From: Flavobacterium sp.
GTDB lineage: Bacteria; Bacteroidota; Bacteroidia; Flavobacteriales; Flavobacteriaceae
Length of the DNA stretch: 64,000 nt
NCBI RefSeq assembly: GCF_013822155.1
Contig: NZ_PNJW01000008.1
Coordinates: 18,270 to 82,269, forward strand
Direction: 5' to 3'
Translations under genes and position numbers: made by a program
Notes under the pieces: generated by a model
Database searches by the model: none
What the model saw: the letters and a program-made list of their open reading frames with translations, nothing else
Told to the model about the DNA's origin: nothing
Shown: in pieces, positions 46,873 to 64,000 of the stretch
Layout of the letters: each line of letters starts with the position of its first letter
Position numbering within the stretch: position 1 is the stretch's first letter

Positions 46873-47011
46873 TGATTTTATAAAATTTTGAGCCGTAAAA
46901 TTACGATTATTTATGGGTTTTTCAACTTCAAGTTGTTAACAAATGTTAATTGTTTTGTCCTTCAAATGATTAGCTTTTAAATCGAAAAACGGGATACAAA
47001 TTCTTATTGAA

Positions 47012-47893
47012 TTAACCGTTTTTCTTCGCTTTAATCATAGCTTCTAACATATCCCACATTTCTTCGGGAATAGCTTCTAAAAGATTAAATTGACCGGCAC
47101 CTTTTAACCATTCACCACCGTCAATGGTAATAACTTCACCATTTACGTAAGCCGAAAAATCAGATACTAAATAAGCCGCTAAATTGGCTAATTCCTGATG
47201 ATCGCCAACTCTTTTCAAAGGTACTTTTTTGGCCATATCAAATTTTTCGGCTAAATCGCCCGGTAATAAGCGGTCCCAAGCCCCTTTGGTTGGAAAAGGT
47301 CCGGGTGCAATAGCATTACTACGAATACCATATTTTGCCCATTCTACAGCCAAACTTCTGGTCATAGCCAAAACGCCCGCTTTTGCCGTTGCACTAGGTA
47401 CAACATAAGCAGAACCTGTCCATGCATAAGTTGTGACAATATTTAAAATTACAGAACTTTCCTGTTTGGTATCAATCCAATGTTTTCCAAAAGCCAAGGT
47501 GCAGTTTTTTGAACCTTTTAAAACGATGTCAATAATCGTATCAAAAGCATTGGCCGATAATCTTTCTGTTGGTGAGATGAAATTTCCGGCAGCATTATTC
47601 AGTAATACATCCGCTTTTCCAAATGTTTTTACTACTTCTTGTAACATTGCTTCCACTTGATCATAATGGCGAACATCACATTGCAAAGGCAAACAAATTC
47701 CTCCGGTTTGTGATTCTAATTCAGCAGCGGTTGTTGTTAACTTGTCTAAATCTCTGGAAGTTATGGCTACTTTTGCTCCTAATTCTAAGAAATATTTTGT
47801 CATCGCTTTTCCGAGTCCGCTACCGCCACCGGTTACAACAATTACTTTGCCTTCTAGGGCATTATCACGAAGCATTTTTGCAGAAAAATTCAT
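47012..47893 (-). CDS. Short-chain dehydrogenase/reductase (2,4-dienoyl-CoA reductase-like)
   Basis: 293 residues. Cofactor site VVTGGGSGLGKAMTKYF near 19-35, NNAAGNFISPTERLS near 99, and the active segment YVVPSATAKAGVLAMTRSLAVEWA near 167-190. The H/P-S-A-x-x-K-A-G-V pattern and the NAIAPGPFPTKGAWDRL loop resemble dienoyl-CoA or trans-enoyl-CoA reductases more than classical SDRs, which have Y-x-x-x-K. It probably acts on unsaturated acyl-CoA in beta-oxidation. It is preceded by a weaker TATCTTTA box and stands alone. Confidence 0.88.
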   Translation of the reverse strand: MNFSAKMLRDNALEGKVIVVTGGGSGLGKAMTKYFLELGAKVAITSRDLDKLTTTAAELESQTGGICLPLQCDVRHYDQVEAMLQEVVKTFGKADVLLNNAAGNFISPTERLSANAFDTIIDIVLKGSKNCTLAFGKHWIDTKQESSVILNIVTTYAWTGSAYVVPSATAKAGVLAMTRSLAVEWAKYGIRSNAIAPGPFPTKGAWDRLLPGDLAEKFDMAKKVPLKRVGDHQELANLAAYLVSDFSAYVNGEVITIDGGEWLKGAGQFNLLEAIPEEMWDMLEAMIKAKKNG

Positions 47894-47965
47894 AAATAGT
47901 TGGTTTTTTGTAAAGATATAAAATAGCTATAATTCTGAAAGTAATTTATAGTTTATGTAACGTTT

Positions 47966-49096
47966 TTATTTTAATTTAAGCAATCGTTCTGCTGCTTTTG
48001 TGAGTGTTTCATCATCTTTGGCAAAGCAAAAGCGAATGCGTTTTAAATCGGTATTATCACCGTAAAAAATAGATAGCGGAATGGTTGAAACACCAAATTC
48101 AGTTACTAATCGTTTGGTAAAATCCAAGTCAGATTCAGTTGAAATGCCTTTGTAAGAAGCAACTTGAAAATAAGTTCCTTCACAGGGTAATAATTCAAAA
48201 GAGGTTTCTTTCATTAAGTTTTGAAAAAAATCACGTTTTTGTTGGTATACTGTTTTGACTGAACTGATGTCGAAAATATCTAAATAATCACTTATGGCAG
48301 CTTGAGATAGACTGTTGACACTAAAAACTAAAAATTGATGTACTTTTTTTACTTCTTTCATCAAATGTTCAGGAGCAACGGCGTAACCAATTTTCCATCC
48401 AGTTAGGTGTAATGTTTTTCCAAAAGAAGAAGTAATAATTGCCCGATGACGCAGTTTTTCTCTTGTATTGACAGAAATGTGGTTGTTTTCAAAAGCTATG
48501 TATTCGTAAACTTCATCGGATAAAAGTAAAACATCAGGAAATTTTTCTAACAAATTTTCTAATTCAACAAACTCTTTTTCACACCACATTTTTCCGGAGG
48601 GATTGTGCGGATTATTTAAAATTAGAAGTTTAGTTTTAGGCGATAAATGATGAGCAATTTTCTCAAAATTTGGGGAATAATCCTCATTTAAAGAAACGCG
48701 AACCGGTTTGGCATTGCTTAATAAAATGGGGGTTTCATAACAATCATAACTTGGATCCAAAATCAATACTTCATCACCAGAATGAACTAAAGCTTGAATG
48801 GTTGCAAAAATAGCTTCTGTAGCTCCCGCAGTAATTAGCAGTTCCGTCAAAGGATTGATGACTCTTTGGTAGGATTGAGCGGTTAGTTTGGCAATTTTTT
48901 CCATCAAAGTCGGATAACCTGCCATTGGCGTGTATTGATGCACATCTGAACCTGCTAATCGTCTTGTAATCTCAGCCATTTTTTCATCAATCGGAAAATT
49001 TGGAAATCCTTGAGATAAATTTATGGCATTGAAATCTACTGCCATTTTAGACATGACAGTGAAAATGCTGGTTTGCAAGTGCGGAAGTTTAGACAT
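47966..49096 (-). CDS. PLP-dependent aminotransferase, methionine aminotransferase-like
   Basis: 376 residues, fold type I. INLSQGFPNFPID near 25, TAGATEAIFATIQALVHSGDEVL near 88, LLILNNPHNPSGKMW near 153 (Asn), LLSDEVYEYIAFEN near 190 (Asp, Tyr), SSFGKTLHLTGWKIGY near 224 (PLP Lys) and RIRFCFAKDDETL near the end (Arg). The pattern is that of the YbdL / kynurenine aminotransferase group, so methionine to its 2-oxo acid is the likely reaction. The exact substrate cannot be proved from sequence. Confidence 0.88.
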   Translation of the reverse strand: MSKLPHLQTSIFTVMSKMAVDFNAINLSQGFPNFPIDEKMAEITRRLAGSDVHQYTPMAGYPTLMEKIAKLTAQSYQRVINPLTELLITAGATEAIFATIQALVHSGDEVLILDPSYDCYETPILLSNAKPVRVSLNEDYSPNFEKIAHHLSPKTKLLILNNPHNPSGKMWCEKEFVELENLLEKFPDVLLLSDEVYEYIAFENNHISVNTREKLRHRAIITSSFGKTLHLTGWKIGYAVAPEHLMKEVKKVHQFLVFSVNSLSQAAISDYLDIFDISSVKTVYQQKRDFFQNLMKETSFELLPCEGTYFQVASYKGISTESDLDFTKRLVTEFGVSTIPLSIFYGDNTDLKRIRFCFAKDDETLTKAAERLLKLK

Positions 49097-49140
49097 ATTG
49101 TAAAAATAGAAATGTTTTAAAACTAATTGAGTTAAAAAGC

Positions 49141-49704
49141 TTATTTCTTAACAAAATTTCGTTTTAAAAGCGAATAGACCGCTGAATCCCAAAACTTGCC
49201 GTCCCAATATTCGTTTTCTAAAAAGTGGGCTTCTTTTACAAATCCATTTTTCTCTAAGACTTTTGCAGAAACATGATTTTCCGGGTCCACAACCGCTTCT
49301 ACTGAATGAAAATTTAGCACATTGAAACCATACTCTAAAATCATATTAATGGCTTCACTTACAATTCCTTGACCTTGGTATTCGGGCAACAACATATACC
49401 CAATTTCCGAACGGTAATTTTCGGTTTGAATGCGATAGTGACCAATAACACCCAGTAATTTTGGATTTCCTTTTACTGTAATTGCCCAATTGATACCGAT
49501 ATTGTTTTCAATTTTTTCGGTAATCATTCCAATATGTTCCAATGCCATTTCTGTAGACGTAACTAAGGGTCTCGGAATGAATTTCATCGTTTCCGGATTG
49601 CCACGAAGTTCCAATATTTCATTAACATCATCAGTTGAAACCGCTCGCAGTAACAAACGATTGGATTCTAGAATGGGGAATGGAGTAAAGGAGAGGGTGA
49701 GCAT
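49141..49704 (-). CDS. GNAT family N-acetyltransferase (RimJ/RimL-like)
   Basis: 187 residues. N-terminal ILESNRLLLRAVSTDDVNEILELRG near 10-34, beta strands WAITVKGNPKLLGVIGHYRI near 74, the acetyl-CoA loop YMLLPEYQGQGIVSEAI near 102 (Q/R-x-x-G-x-G/A) and VEAVVDPENHVSAKVLEKNGF near 136. It probably acetylates an alpha-amino group or a small molecule. It is separated from the neighbours by about 45-75 bases and lacks a specific partner. Confidence 0.88.
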   Translation of the reverse strand: MLTLSFTPFPILESNRLLLRAVSTDDVNEILELRGNPETMKFIPRPLVTSTEMALEHIGMITEKIENNIGINWAITVKGNPKLLGVIGHYRIQTENYRSEIGYMLLPEYQGQGIVSEAINMILEYGFNVLNFHSVEAVVDPENHVSAKVLEKNGFVKEAHFLENEYWDGKFWDSAVYSLLKRNFVKK

Positions 49705-49730
49705 TTTATTTTTTTTGTAAAGATAAAAAA

Positions 49731-49759
49731 AACACCAACCTCTCAGTCAGTGTTTTTCA
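49731..49759 (-). terminator. Terminator after the methylmalonyl-CoA mutase large subunit gene
   Basis: Read on the minus strand, AAAAACAC and GTGTTTTTTTT flank a loop of about 13 bases that can pair internally. It ends the mutase unit. Confidence 0.65.
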
Positions 49760-49777
49760 ATTATGTAATTTCAACTA

Positions 49778-51904
49778 TTAATCTTCCAGTAAAACCTCCA
49801 AAATACTAATCGCTGCTTCACTAATCTTAGTTCCGGGGCCAAAAACAGCAACTGCTCCAGCATCGAATAAAAATTGATAATCTTGATGAGGAATCACACC
49901 ACCCACAATGACCATAATGTCTTCACGACCGTATTTTTTAAGTTCTTCAATTACTTGTGGAACCAAGGTTTTGTGTCCGGCAGCCAGAGAGGAAACACCT
50001 AAAATGTGCACGTCGTTTTCAACGGCTTGTTTGGCTGCTTCGGCTGGCGTTTGAAATAACGGGCCAATGTCCACATCAAAACCAACATCAGCATAACCGG
50101 TGGCAACCACTTTTGCTCCGCGGTCATGACCGTCTTGTCCCATTTTCGCAATCATAATGCGGGGACGACGACCTTCTTTTTTTGCAAAGGCATCGGCTAA
50201 TTGTTTCGCTTTTTCGAAACTTACATCATTTTTAATTTCTTTACTATACACGCCACTAAATGTTCTGATTTGTGCTTTATATCTGCTGAAAACTTCTTCT
50301 AAGGCATCACTGATTTCACCCAAAGTAGCTCTGTTTCTAGCAGCTTCAACGGCTAAAGTTAATAAATTTTCAGTTCCTGTTTTTGCCGCTTCTGTCAATT
50401 TTGCTAAACAAACTTTTACTTGTTCATTATTTCGACTCGCTTTTATTCGGTTTAAACTTTCAATTTGTTGTTTTCGAACCATTTGATTATCAACATCCAA
50501 AATCATCAACGGATCTTCTTTCTCCAAACGGTATTTGTTGACACCCACAATGATATCCTGACCACTGTCAATTCTGGCTTGCTTTCTGGCAGAGGCTTCT
50601 TCAATTCGCAATTTGGGAATTCCGGCTTCAATGGCTTTTGTCATACCGCCTAATTCTTCTACTTCTTCAATCAAAGCCCATGCTTTTTCAGCAATTTCAT
50701 TAGTTAAACTTTCTACATAATAACTTCCTGCCCAAGGGTCAACCGTTTTACAAATTTTAGTTTCTTCTTGTAAAAATATTTGTGTATTTCGAGCAATTCG
50801 AGCTGAAAAATCCGTTGGTAAAGCAATGGCTTCATCCAATGCATTGGTGTGTAAAGATTGTGTTCCTCCAAAGGCGGCTGCGGCTGCTTCAATACAAGTT
50901 CTGGCCACATTATTAAAAGGATCTTGCTCTGTTAAGCTCCAACCTGATGTTTGACAATGGGTTCGTAGAGCCAGTGATTTTTCGTCTTTTGGATTGAATT
51001 GTTTTAATAGTTTTGCCCATAACATTCTCCCTGCTCGCATTTTGGCAATTTCCATAAAGTGATTCATTCCAATTGCCCAGAAAAATGATAAGCGAGGAGC
51101 AAAAGTGTCAATATCCATTCCGGCAGCTAAACCGGTTCGAATGTATTCTAAACCATCGGCTAGGGTATAAGCTAATTCAATATCTGCAGTGGCTCCGGCT
51201 TCCTGCATGTGATAACCGGAAATCGAAATTGAATTGAATTTAGGCATATTTTTGCTGGTATATTCAAAAATATCCGCAATAATTTTCATGGAAGGAGTAG
51301 GTGGATAGATATATGTATTTCTAACCATAAACTCTTTCAAAATATCATTTTGAATGGTTCCTGAAAGTAAATTCGGAGCAACACCTTGTTCTTCGGCTGC
51401 TACAATATAAAAAGCCATGATTGGTAAAACTGCTCCGTTCATAGTCATTGAAACCGACATTTCGCCAAGGGGAATTTGGTCAAATAATACTTTCATATCT
51501 TCTACCGAATCAATGGCCACTCCCGCTTTTCCTACATCACCAACCACGCGTTCGTGATCAGAATCATAACCGCGGTGCGTTGCCAAATCAAATGCAACTG
51601 AAAGACCTTTTTGACCAGCAGCTAGATTTCTACGGTAAAAAGCATTACTTTCTTCCGCTGTAGAAAATCCGGCATATTGACGAACTGTCCAAGGACGACG
51701 GACATACATCGTGGCATAAGGACCTCTAAGATTTGGTGCAAATCCGGCAGCAAAACCTAAATGTTCTAATTTTTCAACGTCAGATTTATGATAAGATTGT
51801 TTTAATTCAATGTGTTCAGCTGTGCTGAAAGGGACAACAGAACTAGTATCAGCTTTTTTTACTGCACTTTTCAAGGTTAACTGTTGTATGTTTTTTCGTT
51901 TCAT
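49778..51904 (-). CDS. scpA: Methylmalonyl-CoA mutase large (catalytic) subunit
   Basis: 708 residues. Barrel with [31 protein letters not shown] near 60-90, [17 protein letters not shown] near 148, [27 protein letters not shown] near 230 and [18 protein letters not shown] near 325. The B12 domain after about 575 has the base-off motif [25 protein letters not shown] (D-x-H-x-x-G) and a late [17 protein letters not shown]. It interconverts succinyl-CoA and (R)-methylmalonyl-CoA, linking propionate, odd-chain fats and branched amino acids to the TCA cycle. The small subunit gene lies 40 bases upstream. Confidence 0.97.
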
Positions 51905-51944
51905 TTTATAAATTCTATTGAAACCGTTTTGTTAATTTATCTAA

Positions 51945-53300
51945 TTATGCTTCTAAGGATAATCGTTCTTGTTCTGTTTTTTCGGCTAAACGTTTTTCAA
52001 TAATTGGCGTTATCAACGTTTTTCGGGCGTTCGTTTTTACAAAAGGAAAAAGTTCTAATTCTTTTGCCATTTTATCATTTTTGTTTGGATATTTATTGGT
52101 TCCCAACAAAACTTCTTTTCCGGAATCAAATAAGTCTTGTTCTTTTTGAGCACTTTCATTGATTTTACGTTGAATTGTTCCTTCTATTAATTGCGTAATT
52201 AATCCGCCGTTTGCTTCAATATCTTTAAATAATTCCAAAGCTTTTTCAGCTAATTGCTCGGTTAATGATTCAATATAATAGGCACCGTCTGCAGGGTTGT
52301 GCACTTGATTGAAATAACTTTCATGCTTTAAAACCAATAATTGGTTTCTGGAAATTCTATCCCCGAATTCATTGTCTTTGTGATAAAGTGCATCATAAGC
52401 CAAATTAGAAATTCCGTCTGCACCTCCCAAAATAGCACTCATACATTCTGTAGTAGTACGAAGCATATTCACATTATAATCGAATAAAGTTTTGTTGCGT
52501 TTGGTGGGAGTAACAATGATATGACAATCAAAGGTATAGTCATATTCTTTTGCTAACGAATCAAAAAGTAATCGCAAGGCACGTAATTTTGCTATTTCGA
52601 AAAAATAATTGGTTCCAACAGAAACTTCAAAAGTTATTGGAGTTGAAATACTATCAATTCGATTGAAATATTCATTCACATGAGCCATGGCATAAGCCAA
52701 TTGTTGAATGATATTTGCTCCTGCATTTTGATATAAATCAATTTTACAACTTAGGAATGGAAAATTTAACGATGCTACAGATTGCAGTTGGTTGAAATCT
52801 TTTTCTAATGATTCAAACCAATTTCCGTCCTTCGCTAATTGCCCTATAGTATCTTGTAAAACAATGATTTTGTAGTTATTTTGAGAGGCAAAAGATGCGG
52901 ATTTCTTGATAAAATCAGCCGAAAGAAATAACACGTTAAAATAATAGATGATGTTTTCCTTCGGAAGATTTTTCATCAGTTTTTCTAAAGAAACAGTATC
53001 AGATTCAAGCGTAAACCGAATTGATTCTGCTCCTCTATTAATCGTTTCTGCTGCTCTTTCATTAGACTTTGAAATATCATAAACATAAATGTTTTGAATA
53101 ATTTTAAATCCGTTTGAAATTGGTGATTCGAATTTTAACTGATTTTCATCGGCGTGGTAAAAAGGTTTTACTTTAATACCTTCCGGACTTTCCCAAACTA
53201 AAGTTTCGTTATAATCAGCCCCTTTGAGTTCGTACTGAATTTGCTGTTTCCATTGTTTGGATGAAACAGATTCAAATTCGTTGAATAGATGCTTAGACAT
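51945..53300 (-). CDS. mutA: Methylmalonyl-CoA mutase small subunit
   Basis: 451 residues, shorter than the large subunit. It aligns with the mutase barrel (QIQYELKGADYNETLVWESPEGIKVKPFYH near 20-50, FFEIAKLRALRLLFDS near 228, DALYHKDNEFGDRISRNQLLVLKHESYFNQVHNPADGAYY near 302). There is no B12-binding D-x-H-x-x-G domain at the C-terminus, as expected for the non-catalytic partner in bacterial heterodimers. It is followed by the catalytic subunit and preceded at 3 bases by the DivIC-like gene. Confidence 0.94.
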   Translation of the reverse strand: MSKHLFNEFESVSSKQWKQQIQYELKGADYNETLVWESPEGIKVKPFYHADENQLKFESPISNGFKIIQNIYVYDISKSNERAAETINRGAESIRFTLESDTVSLEKLMKNLPKENIIYYFNVLFLSADFIKKSASFASQNNYKIIVLQDTIGQLAKDGNWFESLEKDFNQLQSVASLNFPFLSCKIDLYQNAGANIIQQLAYAMAHVNEYFNRIDSISTPITFEVSVGTNYFFEIAKLRALRLLFDSLAKEYDYTFDCHIIVTPTKRNKTLFDYNVNMLRTTTECMSAILGGADGISNLAYDALYHKDNEFGDRISRNQLLVLKHESYFNQVHNPADGAYYIESLTEQLAEKALELFKDIEANGGLITQLIEGTIQRKINESAQKEQDLFDSGKEVLLGTNKYPNKNDKMAKELELFPFVKTNARKTLITPIIEKRLAEKTEQERLSLEA

Positions 53301-53303
53301 CGT

Positions 53304-53651
53304 TTATAGAGATTTATTGTTTTCTTCTTCTAACAAATCCTCTTCAAATTCGATGATATAAATATCTTCGCTGTCGCGTTTCATATAATACTTTTCGCGA
53401 GCATATTTTTCAATTTGATCAGGATTGTTTAATCGTTTAATATCAAGACAGTCTTTTTTAATTTCGTCTTGGTAGTATTTTTTATTGGTTTCAAGTTCAT
53501 CCAATTCTTTATTTAAAACGCGATGTTCAATGTAAGAATAGTTATCAAGGAAAAGCATCCAAACAGCGAAAAAAACAAGTACTAATACATATCGGTTTCC
53601 GACATATTTGAACCATGGGTGTTTTTCCTTATAGCGTTGGATAAAGTTCAT
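53304..53651 (-). CDS. Septum formation initiator family protein (FtsB/DivIC-like)
   Basis: 115 residues. One membrane helix at about 20-37 (YVLVLVFFAVWMLFLD) followed by a coiled coil (LDELETNKKYYQDEIKKDC) and the conserved IEKYAREKYYMKRDSEDIYII segment near 80-103. Such proteins join FtsL/FtsQ in the divisome. It lies 2 bases after udk and 3 before the mutase small subunit, so it is in the same transcript although functionally unrelated. Confidence 0.9.
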   Translation of the reverse strand: MNFIQRYKEKHPWFKYVGNRYVLVLVFFAVWMLFLDNYSYIEHRVLNKELDELETNKKYYQDEIKKDCLDIKRLNNPDQIEKYAREKYYMKRDSEDIYIIEFEEDLLEEENNKSL

Positions 53652-53653
53652 GT

Positions 53654-54262
53654 TTATAATATTCGTTGGTTAATTACGGCTCGAACTACATCGATGGCAA
53701 CTGTATTGTATTTGTCATTCGGAATTATAATATCTGCAAAGGCTTTGGTGGGTTCAATGAACTGTTCGTGCATTGGTTTTAACGTAGTTTGATAGCGATT
53801 TATAACCTCATTCATATCACGTCCCCGTTCTGCAATATCACGTTTTAATCTTCGAATTAGTCGTTCATCAGAATCGGCATGAACATATACTTTAATGTCG
53901 AACATATCACGAAGCTCTGGATTAGATAGGATTAAAATGCCTTCAACAATAATTACCTTTCTGGGATGAGTAATAATTGTGTCATCTGTTCGATTGTGTG
54001 TAACAAAAGAATAAACCGGTTGTTCAATTATATTACCCGCTTTAAGTTCTTTTAAATGGTTAACTAATAATTCGAAATCGATGGCTCTGGGATGATCAAA
54101 ATTAATTTTCGTTCGTTCTTCATAGCTTAAATTATGTGTTTCTTTGTAGTAGGAGTCTTGAGAAATTACTCCAACCTCGGTGTCAGGAAGTTCATTCATG
54201 ATTTGATGAACAACAGTTGTTTTTCCACTCCCGGTACCTCCTGCAATTCCAATAATCAGCAT
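53654..54262 (-). CDS. udk: Uridine kinase
   Basis: 202 residues. Walker A IGIAGGTGSGKTTVVHQI at 4-21, SQDSYYKETHNLSYEERTKINFDHPRAIDFELL near 38-70 (nucleoside-binding), VIIVEGILILSNPELRD near 102 and DSDERLIRRLKRDIAERGRDMNEVINRYQ near 130-158. It phosphorylates uridine and cytidine for salvage. It heads the minus-strand unit udk, divIC-like, mutA, scpA. Confidence 0.96.
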   Translation of the reverse strand: MLIIGIAGGTGSGKTTVVHQIMNELPDTEVGVISQDSYYKETHNLSYEERTKINFDHPRAIDFELLVNHLKELKAGNIIEQPVYSFVTHNRTDDTIITHPRKVIIVEGILILSNPELRDMFDIKVYVHADSDERLIRRLKRDIAERGRDMNEVINRYQTTLKPMHEQFIEPTKAFADIIIPNDKYNTVAIDVVRAVINQRIL

Positions 54263-54454
54263 AATTTATTTATTGTTTTATTCCCTACAAATTTAGGAAA
54301 ATTTAACTACTTAGAATTAGTAATGCAAATCTTTTTTAAAGGAGTTACTAACGAAAACGTTTTAAAAAATGAGATTATTTAAAAAACAGGATTGAATTTT
54401 AAGAAATGTGAAATGGAAGGAAATAAATTCTTTTTCAAAGGAAAATTTACAAAT

Positions 54455-54478
54455 AAAAAATCCCGAACATGTCAGGAT
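54455..54478 (-). terminator. Terminator after trxB
   Basis: Read on the minus strand, ATCCTGA-CATGT-TCGGGAT followed by a T run, 27 bases past the trxB stop. The stem has 7 pairs including one T-G. Confidence 0.75.
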
Positions 54479-54504
54479 AATTTTATTCATTTGGTTTGGT
54501 GTAA

Positions 54505-55452
54505 TTATTCTTTTGACGCTAAATATCTTTCTGCATCTAAAGCTGCCATACAACCTGTACCGGCTGCGGTTATTGCTTGTCGGTAAACATGATCAGCGGC
54601 ATCACCGGCCACAAAAACTCCGGGGACATTAGTTTTAGATGTGCCGGGAATATTTTTGATATATCCTGTTTCATCTAATGTAATAAAATCTTTAAAGATT
54701 GCAGTATTAGGTTCATGTCCAATGGCAACAAAGAATCCGGTAGTCGGAATTTCAGTTTCAACGCCACTTGTTCTTTCTTTTACTAAGACTGAACTAACCA
54801 CTTGACCGTCTCCCTTTACTTCTATGGTTTCGGTATTTAATAAGATTTCTATATTTTCAGTTTTTCTAACTCTGGTTTCCATTATTTTTGAAGCTCTGAA
54901 CTTTTCACTTCGCACTAACATGGTTACTTTTTTACACATTTTAGAAAGGTAATGTGCCTCTTCACAAGCTGAATCGCCGGCACCTACAATCACAACTTCT
55001 TGATTTCGGTAGAAGAAACCATCACAAACGGCACAAGCAGAAACACCACCCCCTAATTTCAAGTAATGTTGTTCTGAAGGTAAACCCAAATATTTTGCTG
55101 ATGCACCTGTAGAAATAATGACCGTTTCACAATGTAATTCTATGGTGTCATTTATCCAAACTTTATGAATAGGTCCGGTAAAATCAACTTTTGTTGCCCA
55201 ACCATCTCTAATGTCGGTATTGAATCTTTTGGCTTGAGCCTGAAGTTGAATCATCATTTCCGGACCGGTAACCCCATCAGGATAACCCGGAAAATTTTCA
55301 ACTTCATTAGTGGTTGTTAATTGACCACCGGGTTGAGTTCCTTGATATAACACTGGTTGCATACTTGCTCTGGCGGCATAAATAGCAGCAGTATATCCTG
55401 CAGGGCCAGAACCTATAATTAAACATTTTACTTTTTCTATCGTATTTGACAT
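54505..55452 (-). CDS. trxB: Thioredoxin-disulfide reductase
   Basis: 315 residues. FAD motif LIIGSGPAGYTAAIYAARA near 11-29, the redox-active CAVCDGFF near 140 (C-x-x-C), NADPH motif VVIVGAGDSACEEAHYLSK near 152-170 and the C-terminal GVFVAGDAADHVYRQAITAAGTGCMAALDAERYL. It uses NADPH to reduce thioredoxin. It is monocistronic, between a TACCTTTG box and a terminator. Confidence 0.97.
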   Translation of the reverse strand: MSNTIEKVKCLIIGSGPAGYTAAIYAARASMQPVLYQGTQPGGQLTTTNEVENFPGYPDGVTGPEMMIQLQAQAKRFNTDIRDGWATKVDFTGPIHKVWINDTIELHCETVIISTGASAKYLGLPSEQHYLKLGGGVSACAVCDGFFYRNQEVVIVGAGDSACEEAHYLSKMCKKVTMLVRSEKFRASKIMETRVRKTENIEILLNTETIEVKGDGQVVSSVLVKERTSGVETEIPTTGFFVAIGHEPNTAIFKDFITLDETGYIKNIPGTSKTNVPGVFVAGDAADHVYRQAITAAGTGCMAALDAERYLASKE

Positions 55453-55478
55453 GACTTAAATTTTTCAATTTCGAAGTG

Positions 55479-55486
55479 CAAAGGTA
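55479..55486 (-). promoter_or_regulatory. -7 box upstream of trxB
   Basis: TACCTTTG on the minus strand, 26 bases before the trxB ATG. No clear -33 TTTG at 19 bases. Confidence 0.5.
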
Positions 55487-55566
55487 AGTTTTAATAGAAA
55501 AAAAATTCTTAATTGTTGATTAGTTTTAATAAATTATAAAAAATGAAATTTTCTTTTGAGTTTTGA

Positions 55567-55597
55567 TTTGTAAAACATTTTATTTGTTTTATATTTG
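55567..55597 (+). promoter_or_regulatory. Promoter of tRNA-Pro
   Basis: TTTG at 55567-55570, a 19-base spacer, then TATATTTG at 55590-55597. A consensus match about 55 bases upstream of the mature tRNA. Confidence 0.75.
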
Positions 55598-55652
55598 CAA
55601 CCTCAAATAAGGGAAATGATTTGAAAATATCCCGATTTTGAAATTTGCTTTT

Positions 55653-55727
55653 CGGGGTGTAGCGTAGCCCGGTTATCGCGCCTGCTTTGGGAGCAGGAGG
55701 CCGCAGGTTCGAATCCTGCCACCCCGA
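55653..55727 (+). tRNA. tRNA-Pro (anticodon TGG)
   Basis: A 75-base cloverleaf: acceptor CGGGGTG / CACCCCG, D-arm GCG...CGC, anticodon arm CCTGC-TTTGGGA-GCAGG with TGG in the loop, and T-arm GCAGG-TTCGAAT-CCTGC, then discriminator A. The CCA end is not encoded (ACAA follows). It reads all or most proline codons. The adjacent tyrosine recombinase implies that the 3' half of this tRNA is the attachment site of the island. Confidence 0.95.
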
Positions 55728-55740
55728 CAACACTTACACT
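55700..55740. other. Probable left attachment site (attL) of the genomic island
   Basis: Inferred position: the tRNA-Pro T-arm and 3' end (CAGGTTCGAATCCTGCCACC), next to a tyrosine recombinase gene that points away from it. Tyrosine recombinases often use tRNA 3' ends. The matching direct repeat (attR) would lie past base 64000, so this cannot be confirmed here. Confidence 0.45.
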
Positions 55741-55751
55741 AAGTAAGGTCT

Positions 55752-55786
55752 AAAACCCTCAAATTCTATGAATTTGAGGGTTTTTT
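55752..55786 (+). terminator. Terminator after tRNA-Pro
   Basis: A stem of about 14 bp, AAAACCCTCAAATT / AATTTGAGGGTTTT, with loop CTATG, followed by more T. Confidence 0.85.
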
Positions 55787-55961
55787 GTTTTATATCATAT
55801 CAAGAAACCCCAATCAATATCAATCTAAATGTGAGTTAAACGGTGAGTCTTTTTAAGTTTTATATTTACTCACTGAATAGCTTATAAATAACTGCAAATC
55901 ATTTATTTACAACATTTATTTTGATGCTATTTATTATTGTTTGACTTCTTTACTGCATCCC

Positions 55962-55976
55962 TTCCAACGGTTGGAA
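55962..55976. promoter_or_regulatory. 15-base palindrome upstream of the integrase
   Basis: TTCCAAC-G-GTTGGAA, 42 bases before the integrase ATG. It could be an operator or a recombinase arm site. Only the symmetry is observed. Confidence 0.35.
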
Positions 55977-56018
55977 TGAGAGAACAGCGCCAAAGAGTAT
56001 GAGTTGAACATAAAATAA

Positions 56019-57260
56019 ATGGATATGAAGAGTAAAAACACCTTTGGGATTCAATTCGTGTTACGGTTGCCCAAGAACAAGAAAGATGAGACGGCCACTG
56101 TTTATGCAAGGATTACAGTAAACGGTCGCAGAGCTGAAATTTCCTTAAAAAGCAAAGTATCGATCAACAATTGGGACGAAGCAAAAGGAAAAGCAAAAGG
56201 GAAACGGCAAGAAATCGTAAAATTGAACAGTCACATGGAACAGGTGCGTTCTTTGATCTTTGATAGCTATCAGGAATTGATACAGCAAAACAAAGTGGTT
56301 TCTGTTGATGCTGTTAAAGCCAAATACCTTGGTGAAGATATAGAGGAAGCAATGACCTTGCTAAAGGTTATTGAATATCATAAGCAAGTAGCTATTACAA
56401 AACTTGCACCAGGCACCATGAAGAACTATTACACGACAGAAAGTTATCTCAAAAAGTTTATACAACATCAATATCGTAAAAATGATATAACACTGGATGA
56501 ACTCAATTATAAGTTCATTCTGGATTTCGAAAACTTCCTTATTAATTATGAGTCGGTTGATCATCATAAATCTCTTAATAATAATGGAGTGATGAAACAC
56601 ATGGAGCGTTTGCGGAAAATGGTAAATATGGCTGTTATGATGGACTGGCTAGAAAAGGATCCTTTTTCCAAATACAAACTCCACTTCGACAAGGTAGAAC
56701 GAGGGCATCTTACAAAGGAAGAATTAAAGGTATTGAGCAATAAAAATTTTAAAATTGAACGGTTGCAATCTGTACTTGATATGTTTCTTTTCAGTTGTCA
56801 CACGGGGCTTGCCTACATTGATATATTCAATCTAACCCGAGAAAACATTGCTAAAGGAATCGATGGCAGGGATTGGTTAATGACCAACCGACAAAAAACG
56901 AACACCACGGTTAGGGTTCCCCTCTTGCCGGAGGCGGTTCAATTGATCAAGAAATATAAAGACCATCCCGTAGCTTTAGCAAAAGTCACCCTTTTTCCAG
57001 TCATTTCCAATCAGCGCATGAACGGTTACTTAAAGGAGATTGCTGAAATCTGTGGAATCAATAAGAATTTTACGTTCCACCTTGCTAGACATACATTTGC
57101 TACCACTGTAACTTTGAGTAACGGTGTTCCGATTGAATCTGTCAGCAAGATGCTTGGGCACACTTCAATACGTACTACACAGATTTATGCAAAAGTTGTG
57201 GAACACAAACTTAGCGAGGATATGCAGAATCTAAGGGAGCGAATGGCTGTAAAGGGTTAG
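56019..57260 (+). CDS. Tyrosine recombinase / site-specific integrase of the island
   Basis: 413 residues, the length of Bacteroidetes mobile-element integrases. N-terminal arm-binding beta domain at about 8-90 (TFGIQFVLRLPKNKKDETATVYARITVNGRR), SAM-like core-binding domain at about 110-215 (LAPGTMKNYYTTESYLKKFIQ), and catalytic domain with the first Arg region MFLFSCHTGLAYIDIFNL near 253, HLARHTFATTVTLSNGV near 358 (H-x-x-R) and the nucleophile Tyr in TSIRTTQIYAKV near 390. GC content looks higher than in the housekeeping genes. It probably integrates the element at the adjacent tRNA-Pro. Confidence 0.93.
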   Translation: MDMKSKNTFGIQFVLRLPKNKKDETATVYARITVNGRRAEISLKSKVSINNWDEAKGKAKGKRQEIVKLNSHMEQVRSLIFDSYQELIQQNKVVSVDAVKAKYLGEDIEEAMTLLKVIEYHKQVAITKLAPGTMKNYYTTESYLKKFIQHQYRKNDITLDELNYKFILDFENFLINYESVDHHKSLNNNGVMKHMERLRKMVNMAVMMDWLEKDPFSKYKLHFDKVERGHLTKEELKVLSNKNFKIERLQSVLDMFLFSCHTGLAYIDIFNLTRENIAKGIDGRDWLMTNRQKTNTTVRVPLLPEAVQLIKKYKDHPVALAKVTLFPVISNQRMNGYLKEIAEICGINKNFTFHLARHTFATTVTLSNGVPIESVSKMLGHTSIRTTQIYAKVVEHKLSEDMQNLRERMAVKG

Positions 57261-57470
57261 CTCGATGCAATGGGTTTATTTTATAGAAGGTTTTTATAAA
57301 GAATGCGTCAGGTAAGCCATGCCTTTTCTAGCCAAATGGTGCCTTTGGATGCCAATTTATTAAAGCCTTTAGTCACTTTCAGTTCATTTGTATTCATAGT
57401 GGCAGAATTGATAACAGAAGACTGTTCTGCCCTTCAGAAAATTATTTTAATAATATCAAAGGAATTGCAA

Positions 57471-57758
57471 ATGAGAGTAGAACTTATCACCCGAGAGGAT
57501 CTTGAAAGTTTTAAAAAAGAACTTTTTGAAGAAATCAAAAGACATTCACCTTATATGAGAAAATCGGCACAAGAACCAAAGGAATGGTTGAAAAGCTATG
57601 AGGTACGTAAATTATTAGGAATTTCGGCAGGTACACTTCAAAACCTCAGGTTAAATGGAACATTACCCTATACTAAAATAGGTGGATTGATGTACTATCG
57701 TTACGAAGATATTCGGAAGTTGTTGGACGGTCATGAAAACCGAAAAGAAAGAACTTAA
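57471..57758 (+). CDS. Helix-turn-helix protein, excisionase-like
   Basis: 95 residues from the ATG at 57471 (MRVELITREDLESFKKELFEEI), which is preceded by a GGA-like spacing and begins the part that resembles known relatives; the track's 56 extra N-terminal residues from 57303 look like translated non-coding DNA. The C-terminal ~50 residues are a MerR/excisionase-type HTH_17 (LKSYEVRKLLGISAGTLQNLRLNGTLPYTKIGGLMYYRYEDIRKLL). Such proteins next to integrases in Bacteroidetes elements commonly act as recombination directionality factors. That role is inference here. Confidence 0.82.
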   Translation: MRVELITREDLESFKKELFEEIKRHSPYMRKSAQEPKEWLKSYEVRKLLGISAGTLQNLRLNGTLPYTKIGGLMYYRYEDIRKLLDGHENRKERT

Positions 57759-57793
57759 TGGTATGGGCAGGTATTTTTATTTTGGTCTATAAC

Positions 57794-57836
57794 AAACATA
57801 AAAATTTGGTATAATATTTACCAAATTTTTATGTTT
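57794..57836. terminator. Long AT-rich hairpin between convergent genes
   Basis: An 18-bp perfect inverted repeat (AAACATAAAAATTTGGTA / TACCAAATTTTTATGTTT) around a 7-base loop, between the helix-turn-helix gene and the end of hsdR. It could terminate both strands, but it lacks a GC-rich stem. Confidence 0.6.
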
Positions 57837-57844
57837 ATAGCAAA

Positions 57845-60820
57845 CTAAACGCTCCTTAAAACTCTGTCATACACCTCATTAAACCAAAGACGCTTAAACT
57901 CTTTATTCACCCTATCGTCAGTAAGTTTATTGTATAGACCCAACTTCCCATCAATAAAATTTAATAATTCATCATCGATCGTTTCGTCAAACTTATCTTG
58001 GATATTCGCTTTAGAGTTATTCTTATTAAAGAATGTCATTAACTCTTCGTTTTGATATACATTCTCTTTCATCTTCATAAATTCGATCTTGTCTTCATCT
58101 TTTAAATCTAAACCAAACGTGTCATTTAATACTTTTATGATTTTCGTCAATAGTTCAAATTCATCTTCTTGAGGACCAATACCACCACCAGGTTTTTGAC
58201 CTTGCATATTGGTTTCAGTACTTTCTAACTGTAAATCCGTGGTATATTGGTGCTGTAGCTTATAGCTATCTAATTCAACATTTTCTAGCACATCAGTTGG
58301 TAAGGACGATCTATTTGAAGGTAATTTCTTAAATAAAGCAGCCAATAATACATAGTATTTTTCTAAATCTACATCAGTAAAGGTGATGATTTGTGATAAG
58401 AATCTATATAAACGGATAAAATCATTGATAGATGCTTTTAAATCTATTTGTACTTCCTCTTCAAAGCCATTATAACGTTCAGCCAAATTATTTAGAATTG
58501 GTTGTAATTTTTCCATATTATCCCCTTTTCTAAAGAAGATTTCTGCAAAAGCATCTAAGTCATTTTTGTAAATTAAATTTGATGACTCAATTTTGTTCAA
58601 TACATCATAGACTGAATTTTGGTCGGTTTGATCTTCAAACTCCATTCTGTTGCTACCATAATAGAATTGAAAATCTAACTGTACTTTTTCAGGATCATTT
58701 ACAAAATCAAGTACCATAGTAGAATCTTTCCCTTTGCGTGTACGATTCAAACGACTAAGTGTTTGCACCGTACTTGAACCACCTAATTTCTTATCTACAA
58801 ACATTGTATGCAACAAAGGTTCATCAAAACCTGTTTGGTACATATTTGCAACAATTAAAATTCTATATTTAGGTAGTTTTAAAGCCTCTGGAACAGATAC
58901 TTTACCTTCTAGTTGGTTCATAGAAGCAGAGGTGTGTTCTGCGCCTGTATCGCCATCTGTAACCGTACCACTAAATGCTACTAAAGCTTCATAAGGCAGA
59001 TTCATTTCACGCATAATTTCATCAAACTTTAGTTTGTAACGAACTGCATGTAACCTGCTTTTTGTAACTAACATAGCACGCGACATTCCTTGAATTTCAT
59101 TTTGCGTTTGTGATGCAAAATGTTCTAGCATTATACGCGTTTTTTTATCAATAGCATGATCCTGTAAATCAACGTAATTAGCTAACAAACGTAACGTTTG
59201 TTTTTTAGAATATTCTTTGTCTTCTACCTCAGAACGTTTCACTAATTTATAGTAACGTCGCCAAGACATGTAATTTTTAAGTACATCTAAAATAAACCCT
59301 TCTTTTATAGCTTGTTCCATTGAGTACAGATCAAACTCAGTTTTATCACCTGCTTGATTTCTAGTCCCAAAGATTTCCAAAGTTTTAGTTTTTGGGGTAG
59401 CTGTGAATGCAAAGAAAGATATATTCTTTTGGTCACCTTTACTTAGGATTTCATCTTCAATAATATCATCTAAACTTTTTTCTACAATATCTTTATCTTC
59501 TGCTTCTTCCAAGGATAAAGCCTTACGAAGATGACGAGCTGATTCGCCTGCTTGTGAACTATGAGCCTCATCTATAATCACTGCAAATCTGCGATCCGAA
59601 AAGTGTGACACAGATTCAGATATAACCGGGAATTTTTGTAAAGTTGTTACAATAATTCTACTTCCATTTTCAATAGCAAGTCTTAAATCTTGTGCTGTTT
59701 TATTTTCATCTATATATGCCACTGCACCAGGAGTTTGCTCGAACTGGCGAATGTTATTTTGGATTTGTTTATCTAATACACGGCGGTCGGTAACTACAAT
59801 AGTGGTATCAAACAATGACTTGGAATCTGATGGTTTTTGATATACATCAGATAAACGGTGTGCTAACCAAGATATAGTGTTAGACTTACCAGAACCAGCT
59901 GAATGCTGAATTAAGTATTTTTGGCCTACACCTTTTTCTTTTACATCTGTCAATAATCGATTTACCGCACGGCGTTGATGAAAACGAGGAAAAATTAACA
60001 CTTCTGATTTCTTTACTTCAATGGCATTAGTTTTTGCATTAAAAACTTTTTCTTCATTGATTTGAAGATTGATAAAGTTCTGTACTAAATCTAGCAAAGA
60101 GTCTTTACGTAATACATCACGATACCAATACGCCGTAGCAAAATCATCTTCACAATAGTTTTCTAAATCTTGATTGAATGGTAAGAAAAATGTTTTCTCA
60201 TCTGCCAAACGCGTTGTCATGGCTACTTTTTCTGTACTTACAGCAAAATGAACCAAACACCGTTGAAATTCGAAAAGCTTTTCTTTAGAATCTCTATCTT
60301 TCCGATATTGCTCTATAGCTTGTGAAAGATATTGTCCCGTTAAAGCATTTTTTAGTTCAGCCGTAACTACAGGGATTCCATTGATAAAGAATGCTAAATC
60401 AAGTGAATTGTTGTTTTTGTTGGAATAAGCTAACTGACGAACAATAGTCAGTTTATTCTTTTTATAGTTTTCTAAATGTTCAGGAGAGCGGTTGTGGTTG
60501 GGCTTAAAGTAAGCCATTTTTAATTTAACACCACGATCTTTCATAGCGCCATCACGTAGCACTTGCAATGTTGTATTATTAGTAATAGACTTTGCTAAAT
60601 TTTCTACAATCTTTTGATTTGTTAAATCCCCGTATTGTTCCTGTAGCCTTGCGTATTCATTTGGTTGAGTATCTTGTACAAAGGCAACAATATCTTCCTC
60701 AATAAGACATAAATCTTTATTGTAAACACTAGTGTGTTTTTCTTGATACTCTTGTACGGTATTTACCAGATAATTTACCACATGCGCTTCGAATGCAGCT
60801 TCGTTCGTTCCTGTAGCCAT
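57845..60820 (-). CDS. hsdR: Type I restriction endonuclease subunit R (HsdR)
   Basis: 991 residues, normal for HsdR. Nuclease domain about 1-230 with SLDLAFFINGIPVVTAELKNALTGQ near 138-162 (the E-x-K site in AELKN). SF2 helicase with Walker A IQHSAGSGKSNTISWLA near 298, IVTTLQKFPVI near 393, DEAH box VIIDEAHSSQAGE near 418, FFAFTATPKTKTLEIFG near 470 and VQTLSRLNRTRKGKDS near 700. It translocates DNA and cuts away from the recognition site. It starts 6 bases after hsdS in the hsdM-hsdS-hsdR operon. The reading frame is intact. Confidence 0.96.
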   Translation of the reverse strand: MATGTNEAAFEAHVVNYLVNTVQEYQEKHTSVYNKDLCLIEEDIVAFVQDTQPNEYARLQEQYGDLTNQKIVENLAKSITNNTTLQVLRDGAMKDRGVKLKMAYFKPNHNRSPEHLENYKKNKLTIVRQLAYSNKNNNSLDLAFFINGIPVVTAELKNALTGQYLSQAIEQYRKDRDSKEKLFEFQRCLVHFAVSTEKVAMTTRLADEKTFFLPFNQDLENYCEDDFATAYWYRDVLRKDSLLDLVQNFINLQINEEKVFNAKTNAIEVKKSEVLIFPRFHQRRAVNRLLTDVKEKGVGQKYLIQHSAGSGKSNTISWLAHRLSDVYQKPSDSKSLFDTTIVVTDRRVLDKQIQNNIRQFEQTPGAVAYIDENKTAQDLRLAIENGSRIIVTTLQKFPVISESVSHFSDRRFAVIIDEAHSSQAGESARHLRKALSLEEAEDKDIVEKSLDDIIEDEILSKGDQKNISFFAFTATPKTKTLEIFGTRNQAGDKTEFDLYSMEQAIKEGFILDVLKNYMSWRRYYKLVKRSEVEDKEYSKKQTLRLLANYVDLQDHAIDKKTRIMLEHFASQTQNEIQGMSRAMLVTKSRLHAVRYKLKFDEIMREMNLPYEALVAFSGTVTDGDTGAEHTSASMNQLEGKVSVPEALKLPKYRILIVANMYQTGFDEPLLHTMFVDKKLGGSSTVQTLSRLNRTRKGKDSTMVLDFVNDPEKVQLDFQFYYGSNRMEFEDQTDQNSVYDVLNKIESSNLIYKNDLDAFAEIFFRKGDNMEKLQPILNNLAERYNGFEEEVQIDLKASINDFIRLYRFLSQIITFTDVDLEKYYVLLAALFKKLPSNRSSLPTDVLENVELDSYKLQHQYTTDLQLESTETNMQGQKPGGGIGPQEDEFELLTKIIKVLNDTFGLDLKDEDKIEFMKMKENVYQNEELMTFFNKNNSKANIQDKFDETIDDELLNFIDGKLGLYNKLTDDRVNKEFKRLWFNEVYDRVLRSV

Positions 60821-60826
60821 AGCGTA

Positions 60827-62128
60827 TTATATATCTATCTTGCCTGTTACGGCTTCTGAGATTAATGATTGACGGTATTCTTTTAGTTTGTCGATTTGAT
60901 TTGATATTTTTTCTTTCGCCTCATCTATTATTTGGAATTGTTTTTCAAAATATAATACAATATTTTTTTGATCCTCATAAGAGGGCAAAATTACTTTTAA
61001 TGATTTTAAAAGAGTTTGGCTTAAGGATGCTCTGGTTACAATATTCATCTCTTTAACTAATGAAACTCTAATATAATTACTTCTAAAAAAGTATTTAGAA
61101 TATTCAGGATATAATTCTTTTAAATTATAAGGTCTAAATCTTATAGTAAAACCTGAAAAAACTGCATTTTCAATTGTTTTTAGACAGGTGGATGCAATTC
61201 CAATCTCTTCAATAGTTTCAGATGTTCTAGTGAAGAAAACATCACCGTATAACACCGAATATGCTTCGCGATCTTCTTCAGAAGATTTTGCTAAACCTTC
61301 AATTTGAGTAGGTAACTCATAGTTTTTATAAATATCTCCATAACTTACAAATGGATAACCTTCACCAAAATAATCACCACCTTTACTTACACCATTTTGA
61401 CAACTTCCTAAATAACCAAGGGGTTTCACCTCCCAATGCTCAGGAATTTCCCCGATCCATTCGATACCAGAATCCTTCATTGAGGCAGATGGATTAAGTC
61501 CTTTGGTTGCCGTTTCATCGATAATGGTTTTTTTCTTTTCTTCTAAAGATAAAAGCATCTGCTCTTTTTTCAGAATAATGGTGTCAATCTCCGACGTTTT
61601 TTTATTCAAAAACTCAGCAATGCGGGCTTGGGTTTGGATTGGAGGAACTGGGATTAAAGAACTATTAATAACCTCTTGATTGAAAATTTTAGCACCATAA
61701 ATATTAATATTAGCATTCTGTTCTAATATAATAGGTAGCATATAATACAAATACCCCAAACATCTGTCATACTTTGGTACAATAGCTAAAATTGCTTCAT
61801 TTGTATATAAATCTTTCCCCGCAAAGGCTACTTTGCCTATACTCAATTTAAATGAATACAATAAGGATCCTTTTTTTACGGGCAATTTGCCTGAATTATC
61901 AACACCCTTTTGGCTTAACTTATTCTTCGTTTCAAAAATAACTTTTGAATTTAAATCAGATATTGTTACCCAATCATAGTCATCAGAGTCATAGAATTCT
62001 GATTTATTTGTTGGAGGTGTAAAACCAACACTAAAATCTAAAATATATTGAAAAGCAACAATCTTCCATGAGTTTGGTACGTTATTAATCCACCTTAATT
62101 TTAAGTATTTAGAATTAGTTACTACCAT
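60827..62128 (-). CDS. hsdS: Type I restriction-modification specificity subunit S (HsdS)
   Basis: 433 residues with two target recognition domains. TRD1 covers about 1-160 (NVPNSWKIVAFQYILDFSVG, ending SLIPVPPIQTQARIAEFLNKK). The central conserved helix region covers about 160-215 (TSEIDTIILKKEQMLLSLEEKKKTII, ETATKGLNP). TRD2 runs from about 220 (GIEWIGEIPEHWEVKPLGYLG) to about 385, followed by the distal helix (IDEAKEKISNQIDKLKEYRQSLISEAVTGKI). The two TRDs set a bipartite DNA target that cannot be read from sequence. The start overlaps the hsdM stop by one base (TAATG). Confidence 0.94.
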   Translation of the reverse strand: MVVTNSKYLKLRWINNVPNSWKIVAFQYILDFSVGFTPPTNKSEFYDSDDYDWVTISDLNSKVIFETKNKLSQKGVDNSGKLPVKKGSLLYSFKLSIGKVAFAGKDLYTNEAILAIVPKYDRCLGYLYYMLPIILEQNANINIYGAKIFNQEVINSSLIPVPPIQTQARIAEFLNKKTSEIDTIILKKEQMLLSLEEKKKTIIDETATKGLNPSASMKDSGIEWIGEIPEHWEVKPLGYLGSCQNGVSKGGDYFGEGYPFVSYGDIYKNYELPTQIEGLAKSSEEDREAYSVLYGDVFFTRTSETIEEIGIASTCLKTIENAVFSGFTIRFRPYNLKELYPEYSKYFFRSNYIRVSLVKEMNIVTRASLSQTLLKSLKVILPSYEDQKNIVLYFEKQFQIIDEAKEKISNQIDKLKEYRQSLISEAVTGKIDI

Positions 62129-63903
62129 TACACAAACAATTCTTTAATTAAATCAGAAATTCCTTTTTCACCATCTTTCCCAAACTCAAGATCTAAGATT
62201 TCTTGTTTGATATCTCTAGATGGACGTAAAGGCACATAATTGTAGAAATATTTAGAGAAATTAATCTCATAGCCAATTTTAATTTTGTTTGCATCTGGCC
62301 AAGCATGGTCTACATGCGGCAAGATGTTTTCTGCAAAATATGTGCGAATATCCGCAGACAATGGAATGCGTTCTGTACTGCGTTTTTTGGAATCGGCAAC
62401 TAATTCCCCTTTTTTATCTTTTTTAAACTCACCATTCTCATCCAAGATTGGTCGTTCAACTGGTACACTATAATAGCCGAAGAATTCATTATCAAAAATT
62501 TTTGAATACTCATTTTCCTCAAAATTTGAGTAGATATCTACTACACTATCAATGTGCTGTTCCAGTATCTCGTTACGTTTATTACCTAAGCTACGTTTAT
62601 TAGATACAGCAAAACCTGTTTTACCCGCACGCTTATCCTCGACATCAGACGAATTTATTAATTGTACTTTACCACGACGATGGGTAGGTTTATTATTGTC
62701 TAAAAACCAGATATAGGTACCAATACCGGTATTATAGAACATGTCTTTTGGTAAAGAAATGATACAATCTAATAAATCGCTTTCAATAATAAATTTACGG
62801 ATATCGCTTTCGCCACCACCAGCACTACCTGAAAATAGAGGTGAACCGTTGGTTACGACAGCTATTTTACCACCCGATGTTTCCATTTTAGAAATCATAT
62901 GCTGCAAGAACAATAATTGTCCATCACCTTTTGAAGGTAAACCTGCATAAAAACGACCAGCAGGGTTGGTACTTTCGTTTAATACAAAATCGTAATCCTT
63001 TGCCCATGTAACGCCATACGGAGGATTAGCAAATTGGTAGTGAAATTTTTTATCTGGGAAACGGTCATTTGTTAAGGTATTTCCGTGTTTAATATTATCT
63101 ACATCACCTCCCGAAATTAAAGCTTCGGCTTTGGCAATCGCATAAGACTGCTCATTGATTTCTTGACCGTAAGTAAAAATGGTTGGTTTTGGTCCTACGG
63201 TGAATAATTCATCAACAATATAATTCTTCGCTAAATTAACCATACCGCCAGTACCCATTGTTGGATCATAGACAGTACGAATGATTCCAGATTGTGCTAA
63301 TTCTTCTTTTTCTGTAGAGAAAACCACTTTATACATCAATTCAATTACATCACGTGGTGTAAAGTGCTCTCCAGCCGTTTCATTGGATTGTTCGTTCGAG
63401 ATTCGTATCAACTCTTCGAATACATATCCCATATTTTGGTTATCGTACTTACTTAAAGATAAATCTACATCGCACATGGCTTTCACCATTTCGTACAATA
63501 ATTTATTCTTTTGTAGACGAGCAATGATTTTTTCGAATTGAAAATTTTCTAAAATTTCAATTACAATAGCATTAAAACCATTTAAATAATTATGGAAATC
63601 GATATCGATTGTTTTCGTACTTTCTTTTAATGAGTCAAATGTGTGTCTGGATGTATTATGAAAATTCAGACCACCAGCTGCTTTTTTTAGGATAGGTGCT
63701 AATTTATCATCTGCTACCTTTCCTTTAAAATTTTCGTAAGCAGTACGTACATTTTCGTTTTTGTCTTTTAAGATACAATCTAAACGACGTAATACGACGA
63801 ATGGTAATAATACATCACCAATTTCGTTTTTCTTGAAAACATTCCATAGTACCTTATCAGTAATATTAAAAATAAAGCTTATATCAGGTCTTTTTATAGA
63901 CAT
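62128..63903 (-). CDS. hsdM: Type I restriction-modification methyltransferase subunit M (HsdM)
   Basis: 591 residues. N-terminal HsdM helical domain (ISFIFNITDKVLWNVFKKNEIGDVLLPFVVLRRLDCIL near 8-45), then N6-adenine methyltransferase with EHFTPRDVIELM near 180, motif I YDPTMGTGGMVNLAKNYI near 215 (the usual PxCGTGG cysteine is Met here), GQEINEQSYAIAKAEALI near 246 and NPPYGVTW near 292 (motif IV). It methylates adenine to protect self DNA and forms the M2S core. It is the first gene of the operon, behind a consensus promoter. Confidence 0.95.
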   Translation of the reverse strand: MSIKRPDISFIFNITDKVLWNVFKKNEIGDVLLPFVVLRRLDCILKDKNENVRTAYENFKGKVADDKLAPILKKAAGGLNFHNTSRHTFDSLKESTKTIDIDFHNYLNGFNAIVIEILENFQFEKIIARLQKNKLLYEMVKAMCDVDLSLSKYDNQNMGYVFEELIRISNEQSNETAGEHFTPRDVIELMYKVVFSTEKEELAQSGIIRTVYDPTMGTGGMVNLAKNYIVDELFTVGPKPTIFTYGQEINEQSYAIAKAEALISGGDVDNIKHGNTLTNDRFPDKKFHYQFANPPYGVTWAKDYDFVLNESTNPAGRFYAGLPSKGDGQLLFLQHMISKMETSGGKIAVVTNGSPLFSGSAGGGESDIRKFIIESDLLDCIISLPKDMFYNTGIGTYIWFLDNNKPTHRRGKVQLINSSDVEDKRAGKTGFAVSNKRSLGNKRNEILEQHIDSVVDIYSNFEENEYSKIFDNEFFGYYSVPVERPILDENGEFKKDKKGELVADSKKRSTERIPLSADIRTYFAENILPHVDHAWPDANKIKIGYEINFSKYFYNYVPLRPSRDIKQEILDLEFGKDGEKGISDLIKELFV

Positions 63904-63931
63904 ATTATTCTAGTGTTTGATTTTGTTAATG

Positions 63932-63961
63932 CAAAGATATGTTTTAATTGTGCAGTACAAA
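63932..63961 (-). promoter_or_regulatory. Promoter of the hsdM-hsdS-hsdR operon
   Basis: On the minus strand, TTTG (63961-63958), an 18-base spacer and TATCTTTG (63939-63932), about 28 bases before the hsdM ATG. It matches the host consensus, so the acquired operon should be readable by the host's main sigma factor. Confidence 0.65.
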
Positions 63962-64000
63962 TGCATTGGTTATGGGAAATGATTAATTAATCTATTTTGT

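Follow-up and report, generated by a model that had tools for sequence, protein, structure and literature searches.

What kind of element lies behind the tRNA-Pro gene of this Flavobacterium sp., where are its ends, and how did a type I restriction-modification (R-M) operon come to stand next to its integrase? The window, that is the whole stretch of 64,000 nucleotides that was analysed, covers positions 18270-82269 of contig C8 (82269 bp) of this genome (G000). The order tRNA-Pro, tyrosine recombinase, HTH gene and hsd operon, proposed in a first-pass annotation, was recovered by ARAGORN, Pfam and PADLOC, and we regard the region as very probably the left end of a Bacteroidota integrative element at tRNA-Pro(UGG) with exchanged type I R-M cargo.

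The tRNA-Pro target and the left end

The sole tRNA gene in the window according to ARAGORN is a tRNA-Pro (TGG), and the features of the element's left end follow directly upon it:

55653-55728, + strand: tRNA-Pro(UGG), integration target, left complete (ARAGORN)
55715-55728, + strand: 14-bp core CCTGCCACCCCGAC, the tRNA 3′ end, found again where related elements end on the right
55729-55800, + strand: leader at the left end of the element, containing a strong terminator hairpin (-23.1 kcal/mol, z -5.97), kept in relatives directly 3′ of the core
55838-55848, + strand: AAACGGTGAGT motif, present once in the window, a putative arm site of the integrase
56019-57260, + strand: tyrosine recombinase, IntCTnDOT-like, 413 aa (PF17293, PF13102, PF00589)

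The hairpin of the leader replaces the tRNA terminator that was displaced by the insertion. The AAACGGTGAGT motif begins 109 bp past the left core in seven left ends, this one included, and stands at a fixed 72 bp ahead of the right core in six right ends, such that the spacing of core and motif at our left end is the same as in relatives; it is missing from the more distant members L064, L070 and L051. Given this position, AAACGGTGAGT should be the arm site of the integrase.

The integrase has the Arm-DNA-bind_5, Phage_int_SAM_5 and Phage_integrase domains (Pfam), and its catalytic Lys, HxxR, LGH and Tyr are all present, the first Arg being replaced by Ala; the same position holds Ala, Ser or Pro in its relatives. 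In CTnDOT the first catalytic Arg is likewise absent and another Arg substitutes functionally (PMC8138268), and judging from its residues our integrase fits the IntCTnDOT subgroup. A tRNA-Pro(UGG) lies directly 5′ of all close integrase relatives with a readable left flank (11/11, from Flavobacteriaceae and Sphingobacteriaceae), and the adjacency of tRNA and integrase is therefore more than chance. Many more distant integrase relatives are also found behind tRNA tails of the tRNA-Pro type, and in Sphingobacterium sp. FBM7-1 the element starts with the tRNA tail alone. With an intact int gene that adjoins the tRNA gene, and a core in the tRNA 3′ end, the locus has the makings of a tRNA-targeting integrative element.

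The closest integrase, 97% identical, is found in a Myroides MAG, followed by those of Daejeonella (92%, partial), Sphingobacterium bovisgrunnientis (90%), S. cellulitidis (89%), Paenimyroides aquimaris and S. phlebotomi (both 82%), S. alimentarium (73%) and S. paludis (63%), and three genus relatives of the window reach 58-60%; each of these copies stands immediately 3′ of tRNA-Pro(UGG). Such near identity to the integrase of another genus, in a draft of 208 contigs where the contig stops just past hsdM, could suggest that the int-hsd segment was misplaced by binning or assembly and is foreign to this organism. However, 55 kb of Flavobacterium-type chromosome run into this segment without a break, the junction falls exactly at the expected tRNA core, and the estimated contamination is 0.09%; we consider an error of this kind highly improbable.

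Right ends, related elements and conjugation

The end of C8 coincides with window base 64000 and does not overlap any other contig of this genome. The earlier statement that only the left end of the element lies in the window is therefore true of the entire assembly, from which the far end is missing. In regards to the predicted attR repeat of the tRNA 3′ end, none was present in this assembly, where the core CCTGCCACCCCGAC is restricted to two tRNA-Pro genes, as is the tRNA tail; the prediction was borne out at the right ends of related elements. The second tRNA-Pro match (contig C32) was discarded as an attR, being a whole tRNA within a Ser-Pro-Arg cluster. A longer attR of 21-25 bp was likewise rejected: such a repeat was absent from this genome and, in most relatives, from the downstream sequence, and the core in fact measures 14 bp. 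Both ends are found on one contig in three relatives, whose elements measure 78.4, 80.3 and 103.8 kb with the 14-bp core at each end, and the right end is conserved among the relatives with both ends. Right ends share GTTCTT..AAAGAAGTCA..TATTGA...ATAGATATTTG ahead of the core; matches to this right-end motif with one mismatch occur in our genome, and no core stands behind any of them. An attempt to place the right chromosomal flank by gene order was also abandoned, the parA and udk neighbours being on the left side in this genome, and a gene that lies 3′ of trxB in many relatives was not found here in a search that had no positive control. Among genus relatives, the trxB-tRNA-Pro unit (window 46108-55728; L176-L195) is found in different orientations and beside different neighbours (parA, udk-ftsB-mcmA), and this tRNA is therefore a rearrangement hot spot.

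The conjugation gene TraM (PF12508) lies inside four related elements (G060, G063, G064 and G065), which are therefore read as integrative and conjugative elements (ICEs), and by analogy with them the whole element here may be, or may once have been, conjugative. The sole TraM of this genome is located on contig C12, in a different element at the tmRNA gene. This other ICE (C12:28958-71728, L259-L261) begins beside the tmRNA gene with a serine-recombinase-like gene, and it was for this reason rejected as the continuation of the tRNA-Pro element. The backbone of the C12 element runs colinear with that of the Myroides and Sphingobacterium tRNA-Pro ICEs, mostly at 72-84% identity, so related backbones use different integration modules, indicating module exchange.

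Two further observations concern the related elements. Those of Paenimyroides aquimaris, a member of the Flavobacteriaceae, and two Sphingobacterium species (L060, L061 and L062) show 99.0-99.6% DNA identity across the compared stretches of 2.6 kb and 11.5 kb, a similarity pointing to what would be a very recent transfer between families. In S. alimentarium, the left end of a second element is found 15 kb on, and such elements can therefore stack.

The tRNA-Pro(UGG) of several genus relatives also carries extra copies, partly as tandem arrays of 350-358 bp units, each of which combines the tRNA-Pro 3′ half with a terminator and an ORF for a small GIY-YIG endonuclease. They were located at:

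L051:396-2240 (G022): GIY-YIG units
L053:16488-18600 (G007): GIY-YIG units
L052:18600-19056 (G024): GIY-YIG units
L179 near 6364 (G036): GIY-YIG units
L252 near 5850-6990 (G005): GIY-YIG units

The last of the G022 units directly abuts the left end of a tRNA-Pro element. Possibly, these units are mini-elements capable of homing into the tRNA and repairing its tail, and no description of them was found in the literature searched. In L253 (G018), near 4804-5336, tRNA-Pro is followed by tandem units about 173 bp long, in each of which the 14-bp tRNA end is accompanied by a terminator.

The HTH gene, the breakpoint and the hsd operon

Past the integrase, the window holds the following features:

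57471-57758, + strand: small HTH_17 protein, 95 aa (PF12728; listed ORF start 57303)
57730/57731, unstranded: cargo breakpoint, where alignments to close relatives end in the last HTH codons
57780-57850, unstranded: long, perfect hairpin in the gap where the HTH gene and hsdR converge (-23.4 kcal/mol, z -7.21)
57845-60820, - strand: hsdR, restriction subunit, 991 aa (PF04313, PF18766, PF22679; PADLOC REase_I)
60827-62128, - strand: hsdS, specificity subunit, 433 aa (PF01420 in two stretches; PADLOC Specificity_I)
62128-63903, - strand: hsdM, N6-adenine methyltransferase subunit, 591 aa (PF02384, PF12161; PADLOC MTase_I, E 6e-210)

The HTH gene likely starts at ATG 57471, since relatives resemble its ORF only from about residue 53-57 of the listed frame onwards; from sequence, its product is a probable excisionase or regulator. 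The hairpin at 57780-57850 is a probable bidirectional terminator.

The operon hsdM-hsdS-hsdR is convergent with int and the HTH gene, and the three genes were rightly called intact, given their open frames and the expected domains and motifs. In translation, HsdR has an HSDR_N domain with ELK, along with GSGK, DEAH and FTATP, and resembles EcoR124 HsdR structures; HsdM shows DPTMGTGGM and NPPY, and the two Methylase_S stretches of HsdS are its target-recognition stretches. Complete hsdR, hsdM and hsdS with their catalytic motifs qualify the operon as a predicted type I R-M system, the one defence system in the available element sequence. The idea of an integrated defence island thus stands as far as a tRNA-Pro-anchored element with R-M cargo is concerned, while "defence island" describes a single system.

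Between the tRNA and 57730, the window shares 93% DNA identity with the Myroides element and 71-80% with other close elements, and the alignments spanning the HTH gene all end at 57730/57731, past which the relatives still align with one another. None of the close element relatives has these hsd genes. Of the 400 genomes searched in the genus, 36 besides this one encode an HsdR homologue (E <= 1e-100); the nearest three hsd homologues are 63-65% identical and located at unrelated Flavobacterium sites, and the 20 kb read around the nearest three HsdR homologues contain neither a tRNA nor a related integrase. HsdS is far more diverged, at 28-34% identity to the HsdS of the nearest operons. Finally, the finding that would have spoken against an island according to the first-pass annotation, namely hsd at this same site in all relatives and without an integrase, was not encountered: in 29 genus relatives, whose surroundings were read up to 20 kb, no hsd gene lies near trxB/tRNA-Pro. 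Since homology ends at 57730, relatives lack hsd and the nearest homologues lie elsewhere, the hsd genes are read as swapped-in cargo.

Three points count against this reading: the two ends of this copy have not been observed together, the sole TraM is elsewhere, and the G+C content of the hsd genes (31-34%) is no different from that of the chromosome (32.3 +/- 2.1%). Together with the end of element-family homology at 57730, the unseen right end, the lack of a TraM assigned to the tRNA-Pro element and the chromosomal composition of hsd could also reflect a decayed remnant, of which only int and the HTH gene are left, with hsd as a chromosomal locus or a separate insertion that abuts them by chance. 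However, int, the HTH gene, the core and the arm motif are all intact, neither a core nor a right end lies between the HTH gene and hsdR, and the 29 genus relatives that were read have no hsd near trxB/tRNA-Pro. A breakpoint at 57730 is moreover to be expected because cargo differs among close elements. A remnant is thus improbable, if less so than an assembly error, and an element with exchanged cargo remains the preferred reading.

In such an element, a CTnDOT-type tyrosine recombinase would insert the DNA at the 14-bp core in the tRNA-Pro(UGG) 3′ end, regenerating a complete tRNA, behind which the element would bring its own terminator. The integrase, presumed active in recombination, would bind to the core as well as to the AAACGGTGAGT arm sites close to either end, and excision would probably be assisted by the small HTH protein. 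The conserved int-HTH module would then be followed by exchanged cargo, here the type I R-M operon, of which HsdM and HsdS would methylate host sites while the full Hsd complex, if active in restriction, would cut unmethylated incoming DNA, so that host and element would be protected together.

Relation to known systems and significance

The element resembles the CTnDOT/NBU1-type elements (IntCTnDOT subgroup; PMC8138268) in the arm-binding, SAM-like and catalytic domains of its integrase and, in the case of CTnDOT, in the missing first catalytic Arg; like NBU1, which uses a tRNA-Leu, it inserts at a tRNA 3′ end (PMC8138268). It differs from them in its tRNA-Pro(UGG) target, 14-bp core and type I R-M cargo. 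ICECspPOL2 and ICEEaIII target tRNA-Glu, with 18-bp repeats in ICECspPOL2 (PMC8694125), whereas ICECleSHZ29-like ICEs use tRNA-Met or tRNA-Glu with 17-bp repeats and have a shared backbone with different integrases (PMC12561888). These are likewise Flavobacteriia ICEs (75-116 kb) in tRNA 3′ ends, with repeats of 17-18 bp, but they have other tRNA targets and repeats, and the cargo described for them is resistance instead of R-M. The hsd operon is like EcoR124-like type I R-M systems in its complete M-S-R set with all domains and motifs, including N6_Mtase/HsdM_N in HsdM, and unlike its nearest relatives in its HsdS. Such a mechanism is known; this member, its target and its combination of cargo may be new.

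No description of an ICE family at tRNA-Pro in this group was found in the literature searched, which does not prove that none exists. There is about an even chance that we are dealing with a perhaps unnamed Bacteroidota ICE family, defined through its 14-bp tRNA-Pro core and through arm motifs that keep a fixed spacing. Such a family would travel between Flavobacteriaceae and Sphingobacteriaceae and exchange the cargo that directly follows the HTH gene, which in our case is a type I R-M system. Elements with R-M cargo that target tRNA genes are well known, and this general picture is unchanged. The exact ends of a tRNA-Pro element family that crosses bacterial families make such elements delimitable in Bacteroidota genomes, and the locus illustrates one route for the spread of type I R-M systems.
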